Assembly (NCBI RefSeq): GCF_947241125.1
Contig: NZ_OX365700.1
Coordinates: 3,814,001-3,878,000, forward strand
Direction of reading: 5' to 3'
Origin: Nitrospira tepida
GTDB lineage: Bacteria > Nitrospirota > Nitrospiria > Nitrospirales > Nitrospiraceae
DNA: 64,000 bases
In this document: one piece after another, positions 7,812 to 64,000 of the stretch
How the letters are laid out: each line of letters begins with the position of its first letter
How positions within the stretch are numbered: position 1 is the first letter of the stretch
The notes under the pieces: generated by a model
What the model was told of the DNA's origin: nothing
Seen by the model: only the letters and a program-made list of their open reading frames with translations
Database searches by the model: none
Program-made: the position numbers and the translations under genes

Positions 7812-9497
7812 TTAAAACCGTGAGGCAGTCAGTCTGATATCCGCCCGCTCCCAAGCCTTGCGAAAGTCCGCTTCGACCGCCGCGGCTTCCTTAGTTTTCT
7901 GTTGGGCCTCCAGGCTCTGCTTTAACCCGAACAGGGCCCAGCCATTGTGCGGGTGCTGCGTGAGATCGAGACGATAGACCCGCTCCGCCTCGGCAGGTCG
8001 CTTGGCCTGCAACAGGACGGCGCCCAGGGAATGGCGCACCGGAATGTGCCACAGGGGCGGCTCGTAGTAGCGCAGCGCATCCTCCAGCTTCGCAGCTCCG
8101 TTCAGGATCGTAACGGCCTCGTCGTCGTGGCCCTGACGCGCGGCAATCTCGCCCGCCAGCACCCGTTCCGCGATCCGGGCCAGATCCACCACAGGGGTCA
8201 CGCCAAGGGTCCGGTCCTCCGGCAACGAACCGGCGAGATCGAGCAAGGCCCTGTGCTCCTGCTGCGCCTCGTCGAACCGCTTGGTCGCCGCGAAGGCCAT
8301 CCCGCGCGCGTAATGCCAGATCGCCGTCGTATAGCTGAGCTCGGCCGGCGGCTTGGGCAGCGAAAGAATCTCCTCCCACTGGCCGAACCGCACCAGCGAG
8401 AACAGCAGCGAGGGCGTGAACTCTTCCAGCGCCGGCACTTGCTTCGCTGCCTCCCAGGGCACCAATTCACGGAGATTGCGTGCGGCCTTGATCGCCTCCT
8501 GGCTGCGCCCCTCCATCGTCAAGGCCGACCAGAGGAAGTGCACGTTGTGGGGATAGTAGCCCATCGGATAGATGCCGGTGAGCTGGCGATGCGCCAGATA
8601 GTCATGATCAATGGCCGTCGCGTGGATGTTCTGCTCCGCCGCCTCCTTGTACATGCCCAACCGCAAATAGATGTGTCCCGGCATATGGACCAGGTGGCCG
8701 GCGCCCGGCATCAGATCCGGCAAGCGCCTGGCGCAGGGCAGCGCCCGCTCGGGCTTCGGCGAGGCCTCGACCGCGTGGATGTAATAATGACAGGCCCCGG
8801 GATGGTCGGGGTTCAACGTCAGCGCCCGTTCCAGCGTCGAGACGATCTCGTTGGCGCGGCCCTTGGGTTGTCCCTCCGGCGTCCAATAATCCCAAGGCTG
8901 AAGATCCATCATAGCCTCGGCATAGAGGGTCGCGGCATCGGCATCATCGCGGTACTGGGCCGCCACCTTTCCCATCACCTCGGCATAGGCATGATCCAAC
9001 GTTTCCCGCTTCGCATTGGGATCGACGGCATAGCGCAAAGCCAGCGCCTCGATGTAGGCCCGCTCTTGTGCACTTGCGCCTTCGGCACGGGAACGGGCCT
9101 GCTGAATCGCCTCATAGGCCCGTTTCTCCGCTTCGCGCTCCATCGGCATGTTGATGTTCGGGCCGAGCGCCAAGGCGATCCCCCAATGGGGCATCGCCGC
9201 CTTGGGATCGAGCTTCGCCGCCTCGTTAAACGAATTGACGGCCTCCTCATGGTTGAAGGCAAAGACCAATCGTAACCCTTGATCGAAGTATTGTTGTGCT
9301 TTGGGCGACGAGGTGGTGATGGGATGGTGGAGCTTGCCGAGGTTGTCGAACAGCGGTGTGCCGCCCTCTCCGCCGACCTGCGCACGACCTTGATGGTGCT
9401 TCTGATCGGCCGACACAACGGCGGCTGCAAGCACCCAGAACAGGATGAGCCCGAAGAGCCAGCCCCGCATCACGCCGCTATATGGTCTCATCATCAT
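7812..9497 (-). CDS. secreted tetratricopeptide-repeat protein
   Basis: A 561-residue protein that starts at the first ATG of an ATG triplet, behind GGAGG with 4-nt spacing. Residues 1-31 form a signal peptide (RGWLFGLILFWVLAAAVVSA). The rest is a TPR array with repeats such as YFDQGLRLVFAFNHEEAVNSFNEAAKLDPK, and with the conserved patches ALGPNINMP, HYYIHAVEA and GHLVHMPGHIYLRLG. Such proteins mediate protein-protein contacts in the envelope. It is 10 bp upstream of the phosphofructokinase fusion in the same direction, so co-transcription is likely, though a functional link is not evident. Confidence 0.75.
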   Translation of the reverse strand: MMMRPYSGVMRGWLFGLILFWVLAAAVVSADQKHHQGRAQVGGEGGTPLFDNLGKLHHPITTSSPKAQQYFDQGLRLVFAFNHEEAVNSFNEAAKLDPKAAMPHWGIALALGPNINMPMEREAEKRAYEAIQQARSRAEGASAQERAYIEALALRYAVDPNAKRETLDHAYAEVMGKVAAQYRDDADAATLYAEAMMDLQPWDYWTPEGQPKGRANEIVSTLERALTLNPDHPGACHYYIHAVEASPKPERALPCARRLPDLMPGAGHLVHMPGHIYLRLGMYKEAAEQNIHATAIDHDYLAHRQLTGIYPMGYYPHNVHFLWSALTMEGRSQEAIKAARNLRELVPWEAAKQVPALEEFTPSLLFSLVRFGQWEEILSLPKPPAELSYTTAIWHYARGMAFAATKRFDEAQQEHRALLDLAGSLPEDRTLGVTPVVDLARIAERVLAGEIAARQGHDDEAVTILNGAAKLEDALRYYEPPLWHIPVRHSLGAVLLQAKRPAEAERVYRLDLTQHPHNGWALFGLKQSLEAQQKTKEAAAVEADFRKAWERADIRLTASRF

Positions 9498-58732: not shown

Positions 58733-59427
58733 ACACAGGCAGGATGCCTCCTATCGGTTCCACGCGATGGCTCTGGCTCATTCAGATCGGCGGCCTCTCG
58801 TTGGCGATGTTCGTCCTCTACAGCGTGTCGTCAGGGACACCGGCCTCGCAATCCTGGGGTTTTGATACTGATCCGTCCAACGCGCCCCCTCGCAACTTCG
58901 AGGTCGGCACCCTGTTCGATGGGCGGACCGCAGGGGAATGGCAGGTGCTGGCCACGGACAAGGCCAAGAGTCCTCCGCACGTGCTTGGCCAGTTGCAAGG
59001 GAAAGGCGCGGAACATGCGTATAAGGTCGTCCTCGTTGCAGGAACCGAGGCCGCAGATCTCGACCTGTCCGTTTCCTTTTTGGCTCTGGAAGGAAAGGCG
59101 GATATGGGCGGCGGGCTCATCTGGCGGGCGGCCGATGATCGACACTACTATTTGACTCGCGCGAACCCGCTTGAACAGAACATCCGCATCTATCGGGTCG
59201 TCAAGGGAGTCCGACAGATGTTGAAGAACGTTGACCGGATCATTGACGTGAAGCAGTGGCATACCTTGCGGGTGGTCAGCCAAGGCTGCCGCATTCAAGT
59301 GTTCTACGACGAAGCCCCAGTCTTTGACCTCTGCGATCGAACCTTTGCGTCGGGGCGGATCGGGCTCTGGACGAAATCCGACGCCGTGACCTACTTCGAC
59401 GACCTGCGCCTGGAGGTCTTGAAATGA
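58729..59427 (+). CDS. secreted concanavalin-like (DUF1080-type) protein
   Basis: A 232-residue protein with an N-terminal anchor WLWLIQIGGLSLAMFVLYSV and a jelly-roll domain: GTLFDGRTAGEWQVLATDK, FLALEGKADMGGGLIWRAADDRHYYLTRANPLEQNIRIYRVV, VDRIIDVKQWHTLRVV, FYDEAPVFDLCDRTFASGRIGLWTKSDAVTYFDDLRLE. This is the 3-keto-disaccharide hydrolase/lectin-like DUF1080 family, which binds or hydrolyses sugars. ATG 58729 overlaps the preceding stop; a GTG at 58723 is an alternative behind the same GGAGG. Substrate unknown. Confidence 0.75.
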   Translation: MNTGRMPPIGSTRWLWLIQIGGLSLAMFVLYSVSSGTPASQSWGFDTDPSNAPPRNFEVGTLFDGRTAGEWQVLATDKAKSPPHVLGQLQGKGAEHAYKVVLVAGTEAADLDLSVSFLALEGKADMGGGLIWRAADDRHYYLTRANPLEQNIRIYRVVKGVRQMLKNVDRIIDVKQWHTLRVVSQGCRIQVFYDEAPVFDLCDRTFASGRIGLWTKSDAVTYFDDLRLEVLK

Positions 59428-59572
59428 CCGTGACAATCTACAAGGGCGCCTGATCTCGTGATTTTCGACCTAAGACGTTGCCGCAGCGTGACGCCCAGCT
59501 TGACAACCCCGGTAGAAGCTACGGACAATCCCATCCTCACCATGATTGACCTTCCCCATAGGAGGACTGCGG

Positions 59573-59797
59573 ATGAAGCCAACCCCTTCTTCGATTTTTG
59601 ATCTGAGCCCATCCGAGAAACTCCAACTCGTGGAAGACCTATGGGATGACCTTGCCTCAACTCCCGAGGCAGTCCCGGTTTATGACTGGCAGAAAGAAGA
59701 GCTGGCTCGGCGAAAGGCGAACCTCATGAAACACCCGGCTTCCGGGCTCACATGGGAAGAAGTCAAACGGAAGGTTCGAAGCCTCGGTGCCCGCTGA
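59573..59797 (+). CDS. ParD/RelB-type antitoxin, addiction-module family
   Basis: A 74-residue protein: SSIFDLSPSEKLQLVEDLWDDLASTPEAVPVYDWQKEELARRKANLMKHPASGLTWEEVKRKV. This is the unstable-antitoxin family with the conserved LVEDLWDDLA and GxTWEEVK motifs. AGGAGG is 8 nt before ATG 59573. It overlaps the toxin gene by 11 bp. Confidence 0.85.
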   Translation: MKPTPSSIFDLSPSEKLQLVEDLWDDLASTPEAVPVYDWQKEELARRKANLMKHPASGLTWEEVKRKVRSLGAR

Positions 59798-60041
59798 GTT
59801 GATCGTTGCGCCGGAGGCGGTGCAGGACTTGGCAGAAGCCTACGCTTGGTACGAGGACCGACGGCCTGGTCTGGGAGAGGAATTTCTAAGCTCCCTCGAT
59901 GCCTGTATTGAAGCAATACGCCGCACGCCCAAGATACATGCGCTTGTTCACAAGAAGTATCGTCGCGCATTGGTACGCCGCTTTCCCTACGTGGTCTTCT
60001 ACGAACATATTTCCTCAGATGAGGGTCAGGTCTTGCAATAA
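59787..60041 (+). CDS. ParE/RelE-type toxin, C-terminus truncated
   Basis: An 84-residue toxin: ELIVAPEAVQDLAEAYAWYEDRRPGLGEEFLSSLDACIEAIRRTP ... RRALVRRFPYVVFYEH, the RelE/ParE fold. Family members normally run on to a strand such as VVVYAVFHCSRDP with key residues; here the sequence changes to ISSDEGQVLQ and stops because the element at 60020 starts in this place. The product may be inactive. It overlaps the antitoxin, a typical arrangement. Confidence 0.75.
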   Translation: MPAELIVAPEAVQDLAEAYAWYEDRRPGLGEEFLSSLDACIEAIRRTPKIHALVHKKYRRALVRRFPYVVFYEHISSDEGQVLQ

Positions 60042-60250
60042 TGCATCGAGCCGAAGCGGATGTGCTGAATGACGCGAGAAACGCAGGGGGCAGCCGCACG
60101 TAAGGCAATGAGGCGATTCGCAGGGGCCGATTTGGAACAGGGTACAGTTTGCCCGAGATCGGTCCCGCCGTAAGCTTGCACTATTTAACGATCAGTCGGG
60201 TCGTGAGTCCGCTGGCAGTCGGCAATGCACATAGCAAGACCTGACCCTCA
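60020..60250. repeat. 231-bp element with long inverted ends
   Basis: The ends share TGAGGGTCAGGTCTTGC: 60020-60036 in the forward and 60234-60250 in the reverse sense, followed by ATAATGCAT versus ATGTGCAT. Sequences of this type border REP-associated Y1 transposases in many genomes, and related borders occur near 3226 and 5167. The interior contains no supported gene. The left end cuts the ParE toxin and the right end lies against the first cassette gene. Confidence 0.65.
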
Positions 60251-60388
60251 ATATGGTATGGTGCATATTCGCCGCAACTCCCTACGAGCGCAGAGCGTAA
60301 TAGCGCAAAGTCTGGGAACGAAAAGATCCCGAACCCCACACCACCTGAGCTCCCGGCGGGAGTCTCGGTTCCTCCCGAAGCACTCGAG

Positions 60389-60712
60389 TTGCTGCAGCAG
60401 GCCATGTTGGCAGAACGCGCTAGGGCCTATTTCTGGGAATACCGCTACTTGAACTACTTCCTAGTCTTGGGGACCCAACGCGTCCTCGATTGGCTGGCTT
60501 CGTTGCCAGCTCCAACGACGGTCGGCGCCTTTGACACATTCTGGCAACCGCTTATTCCTTCGGCGGAGCAAAGGCGCACGATTCTCTCAGTGCTCGAAAG
60601 TCACAACCTAATCTTCTTTCGGGGCGAACTAATTGAGGTATCGCCAAAGGGTCGCGAGTACATTCAATGGCGGGGACCGCTTCCAAATCTTCCCCCACCG
60701 CAAGCGCCATGA
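60389..60712 (+). CDS. hypothetical cassette protein
   Basis: A 107-residue protein beginning at TTG 60389 or ATG 60404 (LAERARAYFWEYRYLNYFLVLGTQRVLDWLAS ... IEVSPKGREYIQWRGPLPNLPPP). The frame is open upstream to about 60245 without another start, so the gene may be truncated on the left. The C-terminal part looks like a winged-helix fragment. An attC-like site begins 10 bp after its stop, as expected for an integron cassette gene. Confidence 0.5.
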   Translation: MLQQAMLAERARAYFWEYRYLNYFLVLGTQRVLDWLASLPAPTTVGAFDTFWQPLIPSAEQRRTILSVLESHNLIFFRGELIEVSPKGREYIQWRGPLPNLPPPQAP

Positions 60713-60721
60713 ACAAACGGC

Positions 60722-60812
60722 AGATAACCCGTAGCTGGTGTGGACCGGCCGGAAGCGTCGCATGTCATCAACGGCCGTCGGAAATGGCCGGCCGCACAGC
60801 ACGACGTTAGGC
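60722..60812 (+). other. attC-like recombination site 1
   Basis: The right-hand end is the consensus core GTTAGGC (60806-60812, GTTRRRY). The left end AGATAAC (60722-60728) keeps AAC but misses two pyrimidines. The arms GTAGCTGGTGTGG and CCGCACAGCACGAC pair with a few extra-helical bases. Its 91-bp length is in the attC range, and the next gene begins 9 bp later. The site is imperfect, so it may be a diverged attC. Confidence 0.6.
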
Positions 60813-60820
60813 ACCATCCA

Positions 60821-61636
60821 ATGCAGACAGACATGCCCATCATGCTAAGACCAAAGCCCACCAAATGGCTTGGGGTCGCGCTCTGCTCACTTGCATTTGT
60901 TTTGATCGGGATTTGGATGGTCCGATCCGGAGAAATCATGGGCTGGATGGGCATTGTGTTCTTCGGGCTTTGCTTGTCTGTTTCGCTGATTTGCATGCTT
61001 CCAAAGGCTTCATATCTTCTCCTGACCCCCGATGGATTCACGATGTGCTCACTATTTCGCTCACACACAATTCGTTGGGAGGATGTAACGGGTTTTGGTG
61101 TTGGCAAGGTCTTCACCAACAAAATGGTGATGTTCAACTTTGTTGATTCCTACCAGCGGTCTCCAAGGTTGAGATCATTCAATACCGAGCTAGTGGGGTT
61201 CGAAGCTGCAATTCCGGACTCCTATGGGCTCAAGCATGAGGATCTCGCTGATTTACTTAACAGGTATAAGGCCTCATCACACGGAACCCAAGAACCGCCG
61301 CAGCTCATGCCGGAGAGTTTGTTTATCGTCGAGGTCTCTGATACGGGCGTTTCGTGCTCGCGGCCTGACCAAAGGGTCGAGCGTGTCACGTGGGATGACT
61401 TGCAGTGTGTCGAGGTCGTCAACACTGATGAAGGTCCCTTTTTGCCGGATGTCTTTTGGGTTCTCCACGGCTCGGATGGTGGCTGTGTCATCCCGCAAGG
61501 AGCCACCGGGGAAAAGCAACTGCTAGAAAGACTGCAGAAGTTGCCGGGTTTCGACAATGAAGCAGTCATCAAGGCAATGAGTGTGACGACGAATAAACGA
61601 TCGCTCTGTTGGCGAAGGCCGACCGCCAGCGTCTAA
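60821..61636 (+). CDS. membrane-anchored cassette protein, STM3941-like
   Basis: A 271-residue protein with two transmembrane helices near the N-terminus (WLGVALCSLAFVLIGIWMV and GWMGIVFFGLCLSVSLICML) followed by a PH-like domain: ASYLLLTPDGFTMCSLFRSHTIRWEDVTGFGVGK and FIVEVSDTGVSCSRP ... RVTWDDLQCVEVVNTD. This matches the STM3941 family of hypothetical proteins, several of which I know from integron cassettes. The start may be 60821 or 60836. It is visibly less GC-rich than its surroundings. An attC-like site overlaps the stop. Confidence 0.7.
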   Translation: MQTDMPIMLRPKPTKWLGVALCSLAFVLIGIWMVRSGEIMGWMGIVFFGLCLSVSLICMLPKASYLLLTPDGFTMCSLFRSHTIRWEDVTGFGVGKVFTNKMVMFNFVDSYQRSPRLRSFNTELVGFEAAIPDSYGLKHEDLADLLNRYKASSHGTQEPPQLMPESLFIVEVSDTGVSCSRPDQRVERVTWDDLQCVEVVNTDEGPFLPDVFWVLHGSDGGCVIPQGATGEKQLLERLQKLPGFDNEAVIKAMSVTTNKRSLCWRRPTASV

Positions 61637-61767
61637 CGAGTGCGTGCAGCGGAGCGGTCGCCAGGTTGTTGGTTGCTCGTTGCTTTTGTTCTCTTACAAC
61701 ACTGCTTGGTTGTTCCGGGCGTGTTGGCCCTTCGGTGGCGACCGCCCGCTGACGCACAGCGTTTGGG
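61631..61767 (+). other. attC-like recombination site 2
   Basis: It begins with the perfect R'' box GTCTAAC (61631-61637) overlapping the stop of the preceding gene, and ends with GTTTGGG (61761-61767), which departs from GTTRRRY at one or two positions. Between them GCGTGCAGCGGAGCGGTCGCC pairs well with GGCGACCGCCCGCTGACGCAC. The 137-bp length is near the upper limit for attC. Confidence 0.65.
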
Positions 61768-62021
61768 TTCATGCGGAAAATCAAATGGGGTATCTGAGCT
61801 TCCCCCCATTGTTTGGACAGGTTTTCATCTGAATTAAGCTAATGGATCTTTCCCTCCTTCCCTCCTTTCTTTTAGAGTTCTTCTGACTCCTGTTTCCCCA
61901 GAGGCGCGGGCCACAAACCGTCAATGCGTGGTTTGGGTGCAGGGGCATTTCAACACTTCGCTCCAGGATCGGTTATACGGGGCGATCGCCTGTCGGTCCA
62001 TACCGGAGTAGCCCCCTCGAC
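61768..62021. other. intergenic stretch, no gene seen
   Basis: No gene or repeat is supported. A pyrimidine-rich run occurs near 61850-61870. The stretch separates the cassette from the IS3-type remnant. Confidence 0.35.
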
Positions 62022-62169
62022 TCAGCCAAAATGCACCTCGGCCGGGGTCCGTCGGCCCAAGCTCTGGTGCCGTCGTTCGGTGTTGTAGAACAGAAAATAC
62101 CGCTGCAACCCGGCCCAGGCCTCGGCTCCGTCGGCGTAGTCCCGCAGGTAGATCTCCTCGTACTTCACG
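62022..62169 (-). pseudogene. C-terminal remnant of an IS3-family-type transposase
   Basis: The leftward frame ending at 62022 encodes VKYEEIYLRDYADGAEAWAG then LQRYFLFYNTERRHQSLGRR and TPAEVHFG, the C-terminus of a rve-type integrase. The N-terminal part is missing: the coding sequence is cut at base 62169 by the IS21 end TGTCAGCGGTC. The remainder must lie beyond the IS21 element or be lost. It documents an older insertion. Confidence 0.8.
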
Positions 62170-62244
62170 TGTCAGCGGTCATCCAATAATCCCCAGGTGT
62201 GGTCATTGAATTTTCCCCACCCTCCTAACTGAAGGAGGAGGGAG

Positions 62245-64000
<1,756 letters not shown>

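Follow-up and report, generated by a model that had tools for sequence, protein, structure and literature searches.

A probable two-cassette cluster of attC sites lacking a neighbouring integrase in the genome of Nitrospira tepida

Introduction

Integron cassettes are a means for bacteria to exchange small genes, and a cluster of attC sites without a nearby integrase is known as a CALIN. The R'' and R' boxes of attC sites are complementary and follow the consensus RYYYAAC and GTTRRRY, respectively; IntI recombines the bottom strand of these sites.

The closest described systems are the CALIN treated in the IntegronFinder 2.0 paper (PMC9024848), passages of which report them from at least two attC sites upwards, count 2961 of them with an average of almost 6 attC each, mention two in Candidatus Nitrospira inopinata, and repeat the proposal that CALIN are degraded integrons. 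Integrases may still reach such cassettes from elsewhere, as an excerpt of a study on archaeal integrons (PMC9668308) states that an integrase in trans can excise or capture CALIN cassettes. Regarding the sites themselves, a section of Bouvier 2009 (PMC2727003) describes attC as having a central spacer that is unpaired and, on the R''-L'' arm, two or three extra-helical bases.

In this work we analyzed a stretch of 64 kb (hereafter the window; positions 3814001-3878000 in a genome that consists of one contig of 4731961 bases), in which a gene - attC - gene - attC arrangement near 60 kb is very probably a CALIN of two cassettes, with neither an adjacent integrase nor a recognised attI. As in the CALIN outlined in the passages of PMC9024848, its attC sites point in the same direction, each lies behind a gene and the integrase is not near; however, the pair is smaller than the average given there and its left end is truncated.

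Materials and methods

Searches against Rfam were negative for the window as a whole and, at E <= 1, for 59400-62400; we therefore built our own covariance model for attC. The surroundings of intI matches served as training loci, in which paired R boxes with left-arm bulges were sought; 18 sites near intI genes of the same taxonomic class, none of them in the window, were aligned and the structure was written by hand. Three of the 18 came from two integrons of the same genome. The site of locus L024, a possible double site, was left out of the training and used as a test, having been present in a trial alignment; also left out, by eye, were the L078 site at 7969-8046, the L085 and L079 candidates, and candidates in coding sequences that looked like chance. 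The window was searched on both strands over its 64 kb with filters off. A genome-wide search scored 150 of 5628 candidates and missed site 2, so that the attC list of the genome may be incomplete.

As a control the model was run on 28 loci without training sites, yielding 36 matches at E <= 0.5, all of them in intI-derived loci, and no match at this threshold in the control loci without an intI match (L106 and L112). For the integrase, NF011946 at the default E-value gave matches in 14 of 14 control genomes, presumably to ordinary tyrosine recombinases; at E <= 1e-40 or 1e-60 the controls gave no match.

Results

The array and its two attC sites

A preliminary description of the window had listed gene, attC-like site, gene and attC-like site in succession, and this order was seen as claimed, with everything on the + strand (Table 1). 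It had also staked this reading beforehand on a covariance model, by which both sites were then matched, each immediately 3' of a gene, with scores (37.4 and 29.4 bits) inside the range of 19.6 to 57.6 bits obtained in untrained loci. The third-best match in the window reached only 10.9 bits (E 2), with no other significant match, and in the genome-wide search site 1 had an E-value of 9.5e-5. The bare GTTRRRY motif was not informative, with 67 occurrences in the window against 73.8 expected; a cruder motif search of 59000-62300 picked up site 2 and missed site 1 because the R'' of the latter is degenerate.

Table 1. Coordinates of the features in and next to the cassette array (positions within the window).
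Feature	Position	Strand	Remarks
Y1-transposase (RAYT-like) element remnant	60020..60250		231 bp; inverted ends of 20 nt; marks the left limit of what is preserved of the array
Gene 1 (first cassette)	60251..60712	+	Open frame; first listed start TTG 60389, ATG 60404
attC site 1	60722..60812	+	37.4 bits, E 1.3e-6 in the window; arm fold
Mobile cassette 2, putative extent	60807..61761	+	955 bp between two G^TT points, deduced from where the R' boxes lie and where attC is known to be cut
Gene 2 (second cassette)	60821..61636	+	STM3941-family part; two helices predicted at the N-terminus and a second conserved domain at the C-terminus
attC site 2	61631..61768	+	29.4 bits, E 9.6e-5 in the window; bottom-strand fold z -5.11; arm fold

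Each site retains one exact and one degenerate R box. Site 1 ends with an exact R', GTTAGGC (60806-60812), as first described, the gap to the following ATG being 8 bases instead of the 9 stated then; its R'', AGATAAC (60722-60728), keeps just TAAC of the consensus. Site 2 starts with an exact R'', GTCTAAC (61631-61637), which does include the TAA stop (61634-61636) of gene 2, and its R' is the degenerate GTTTGGG (61761-61767). The GTT required at the cut point is intact in the R' of both sites.

Paired arms with extra bases had been claimed for the two sites, and folding bore this out. When the inner part was swapped for a short linker, the arms of both formed an R stem and an L stem separated by an unpaired spacer, the extra bases of the L stem being located on the R''-L'' arm, as they are in two comparison sites; the central spacer and extra-helical bases described in the Bouvier 2009 section (PMC2727003) are thus found in both. 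For the outer 30+30 nt of each site, none of 500 arm shuffles folded equally well on either strand. An extra-helical A occupies position 23 in both window sites, as it does in most sites of the model. On the full bottom strand, site 1 prefers another fold, with a stability no better than that of shuffles (z -0.70).

The GC content of the cassette genes is indeed lower than that of their surroundings (55.6% for gene 1 and 51.9% for gene 2 vs 61.4% for the window), and only 27 of 626 windows of 1400 bp have a GC content below that of the cassette stretch.

Integrases and other attC sites in the genome

The claim that no integrase was visible stands for the 64-kb window, in which there is no intI; in the genome, the search for intI found two loci. 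The first (genome positions 2948496-2949440, - strand) is one open frame, and the second (4636343-4637294, + strand) is frameshifted, lying in two pieces in different frames. Being the nearest strong intI matches, they lie ~0.93 and 0.76 Mb from the array, located at 3874722; no intI adjoins the array, as it does in a complete integron. The two attC sites are on the same strand, separated by 818 bp, and two same-strand attC sites with intI far away are the CALIN layout that had been proposed.

The first intI is accompanied by an attC at 2946496-2946555 (-) and the second by attC at 4638142 and 4638740 (+). In both integrons of the genome (L009 and L010) integrase and cassettes have the same direction, as judged by eye; a BrnT toxin is the product of the second L010 cassette. 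The window pair shares with these integrons attC sites of the same model, and the GTCTAAC start of site 2 is common to both L010 attC sites; in contrast, L009 and L010 have an intI, whereas the window pair has none within 0.7 Mb.

At least three more single attC sites are scattered in the genome, at 50434 (-), 3619646 (+) and 3917652 (+); they are preceded, in this order, by a gene without a Pfam match, by one with a TIR domain and by one with DUF1232. Locus L104 (8753-9746) holds a TIR-domain gene with a single attC at its end (55.4 bits), possibly a defence cassette.

Gene 1

Gene 1 has no Pfam or NCBIfam match and lacks a convincing start codon. Its product is 46% identical, over query residues 1-93, to that of a gene in a related genome (G018), which starts further upstream and has a hydrophobic N-terminus (by eye) missing from the window copy; gene 1 is probably truncated at its 5' end. 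It was present in 2 of the 269 genomes of the class, its own counted, and had no match in plasmid records or in viral contigs.

Gene 2

The first half of the gene 2 product matches the STM3941 family (NCBIfam NF041635) with 67.5 bits against a cut-off of 40. This N-terminal half is common to both; gene 2 differs from the family in an additional C-terminal domain of ~100 residues, which is found separately in loci L020-L023. The motif FDNEAVIKAM is part of this domain, which in other phyla stands by itself or is combined with different partners. Six relatives on contigs of other genomes (L018-L023) match one half only, two the first and four the second, and a single relative has both: that of L024, in genome G021 of the same family as the host. 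The L024 gene terminates in an attC (1798-1891, 40.3 bits). The loci of the other six showed no full attC at E <= 1, with a single partial match of 13 bits in L020; in this locus, from Verrucomicrobia, GTCTAACCAGCGCGATGG lies across the stop and has by eye the look of a left half-site, not being a model match.

Structure prediction for gene 2 gave a mean pLDDT of 80.8, and a fold search returned weak matches only, the best being double PH domains (E 1.3e-3, TM-score 0.21); the product is predicted to be a membrane-anchored protein with PH-like folds. Like gene 1, gene 2 was present in two genomes of the class (269 in total), its own among them. Partial matches to it were detected in just 3 plasmid records, at 29.8 to 40.8% identity, and the cassette DNA had no match in plasmid records. 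Regarding a defence role, there was no noteworthy PADLOC match, and a literature search on STM3941 or integron found no paper mentioning STM3941.

Flanks of the array

To the left, the remnant of a Y1-transposase element sits between a ParE-type gene and the 5' end of gene 1. Its arms (60020-60039 and 60231-60250) are 95% complementary, and 154 bp of it (60094-60247) resemble, at 74%, the 3' part of a Y1_Tnp gene (Pfam PF01797) in L104. Further to the left lies an Unstab_antitox/ParE toxin-antitoxin pair (59573-60041), the 3' end and stop of the toxin being inside the element remnant. This pair was considered as a third cassette and ruled out, since the model gave no attC match left of gene 1. 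The right flank holds an IS-type transposase end, read by eye, at 62030-62172 (-), and an IS21-type transposase with IstB at 62245-64000 (+).

Y1-transposase elements near attC sites

Copies or remnants of the Y1 element lie near attC in three loci of this genome: the window (60020-60250), L104 (9807-11394) and L010 (10965-11051). The 12-mer GGTCAGRYCTTG from the element ends occurs 25 times in the genome, at 18 loci by hand count. Three of these loci are 63, 164 and 472 bp from an attC, against an expectation of ~0.03 (Poisson p ~3e-6); this figure is post hoc, with six attC loci and a 600-bp reach set afterwards, and the motif list includes weak variants. A full copy of the element at 1.37 Mb had no attC in the 19 kb examined, and among the integron loci of other genomes the motif was seen in L072 alone, there too near attC.

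That the element, RAYT-like and with GGGGTCAGRTCTTG ends, favours integron cassettes in this genome appears to us quite doubtful. Such a preference might perhaps come from transposase and IntI both acting on folded single-stranded hairpins; in the literature on RAYT with integron or attC, passages of PMC8266576 are limited to comparing the binding of folded DNA by the proteins. An alternative for the proximity of element and attC is that dispensable DNA gathers insertions anyway.

Discussion

The two-cassette array is a real element of a known kind, modest in itself. Its cassettes would have been placed at the locus by an integron integrase, and the stretch may afterwards have been severed from its integron platform. 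The truncated 5' end of gene 1 now borders on an insertion remnant, and other insertion sequences have left remnants to the right; since there are insertions or remnants at both flanks, both original ends of the array have probably been lost.

We regard as evenly balanced the possibility that the locus is a dead fossil whose sites no longer recombine, which concerns activity and is compatible with its identity as a CALIN. The degenerate R box of each site, the truncation of gene 1 and the insertions on both sides speak for loss of activity, whereas both R' boxes still have the GTT of the cut point and the arms still fold. Because attC works as a folded single strand recognised by IntI, it is conceivable in principle that the intact-looking integrase at 2.95 Mb could still excise cassette 2 in trans, with an efficiency likely lowered by the one degenerate R box per site.

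The same integrase bears on a different origin, one that seems unlikely to us, in which a trans-acting IntI brought the two cassettes one by one into a secondary site of the chromosome, without their ever having belonged to a full integron. The presence of this integrase in the genome would agree with such events, as would the at least three further lone attC sites; however, a tandem pair in one orientation is a better fit to a piece of an array, and the insertions disturb both flanks, where the original ends are probably gone. Finally, it is highly improbable that chance palindromes or transcription terminators behind two unrelated genes account for the sites: the R-box motif alone is no commoner than chance and there is one terminator-like match at 61747-61761 (2 in the region vs 2.5 expected), but two model matches lie on the same strand, at the E-values of Table 1, each right behind a gene, and both carry the extra-helical A seen in most sites of the model.

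The CALIN described here contributes a further orphan cassette pair to a group with few CALIN reported, along with two uncharacterised cassette genes; it is otherwise ordinary. As its host is a complete genome that has integrons too, the in-trans mobilisation of orphan cassettes would be testable there.
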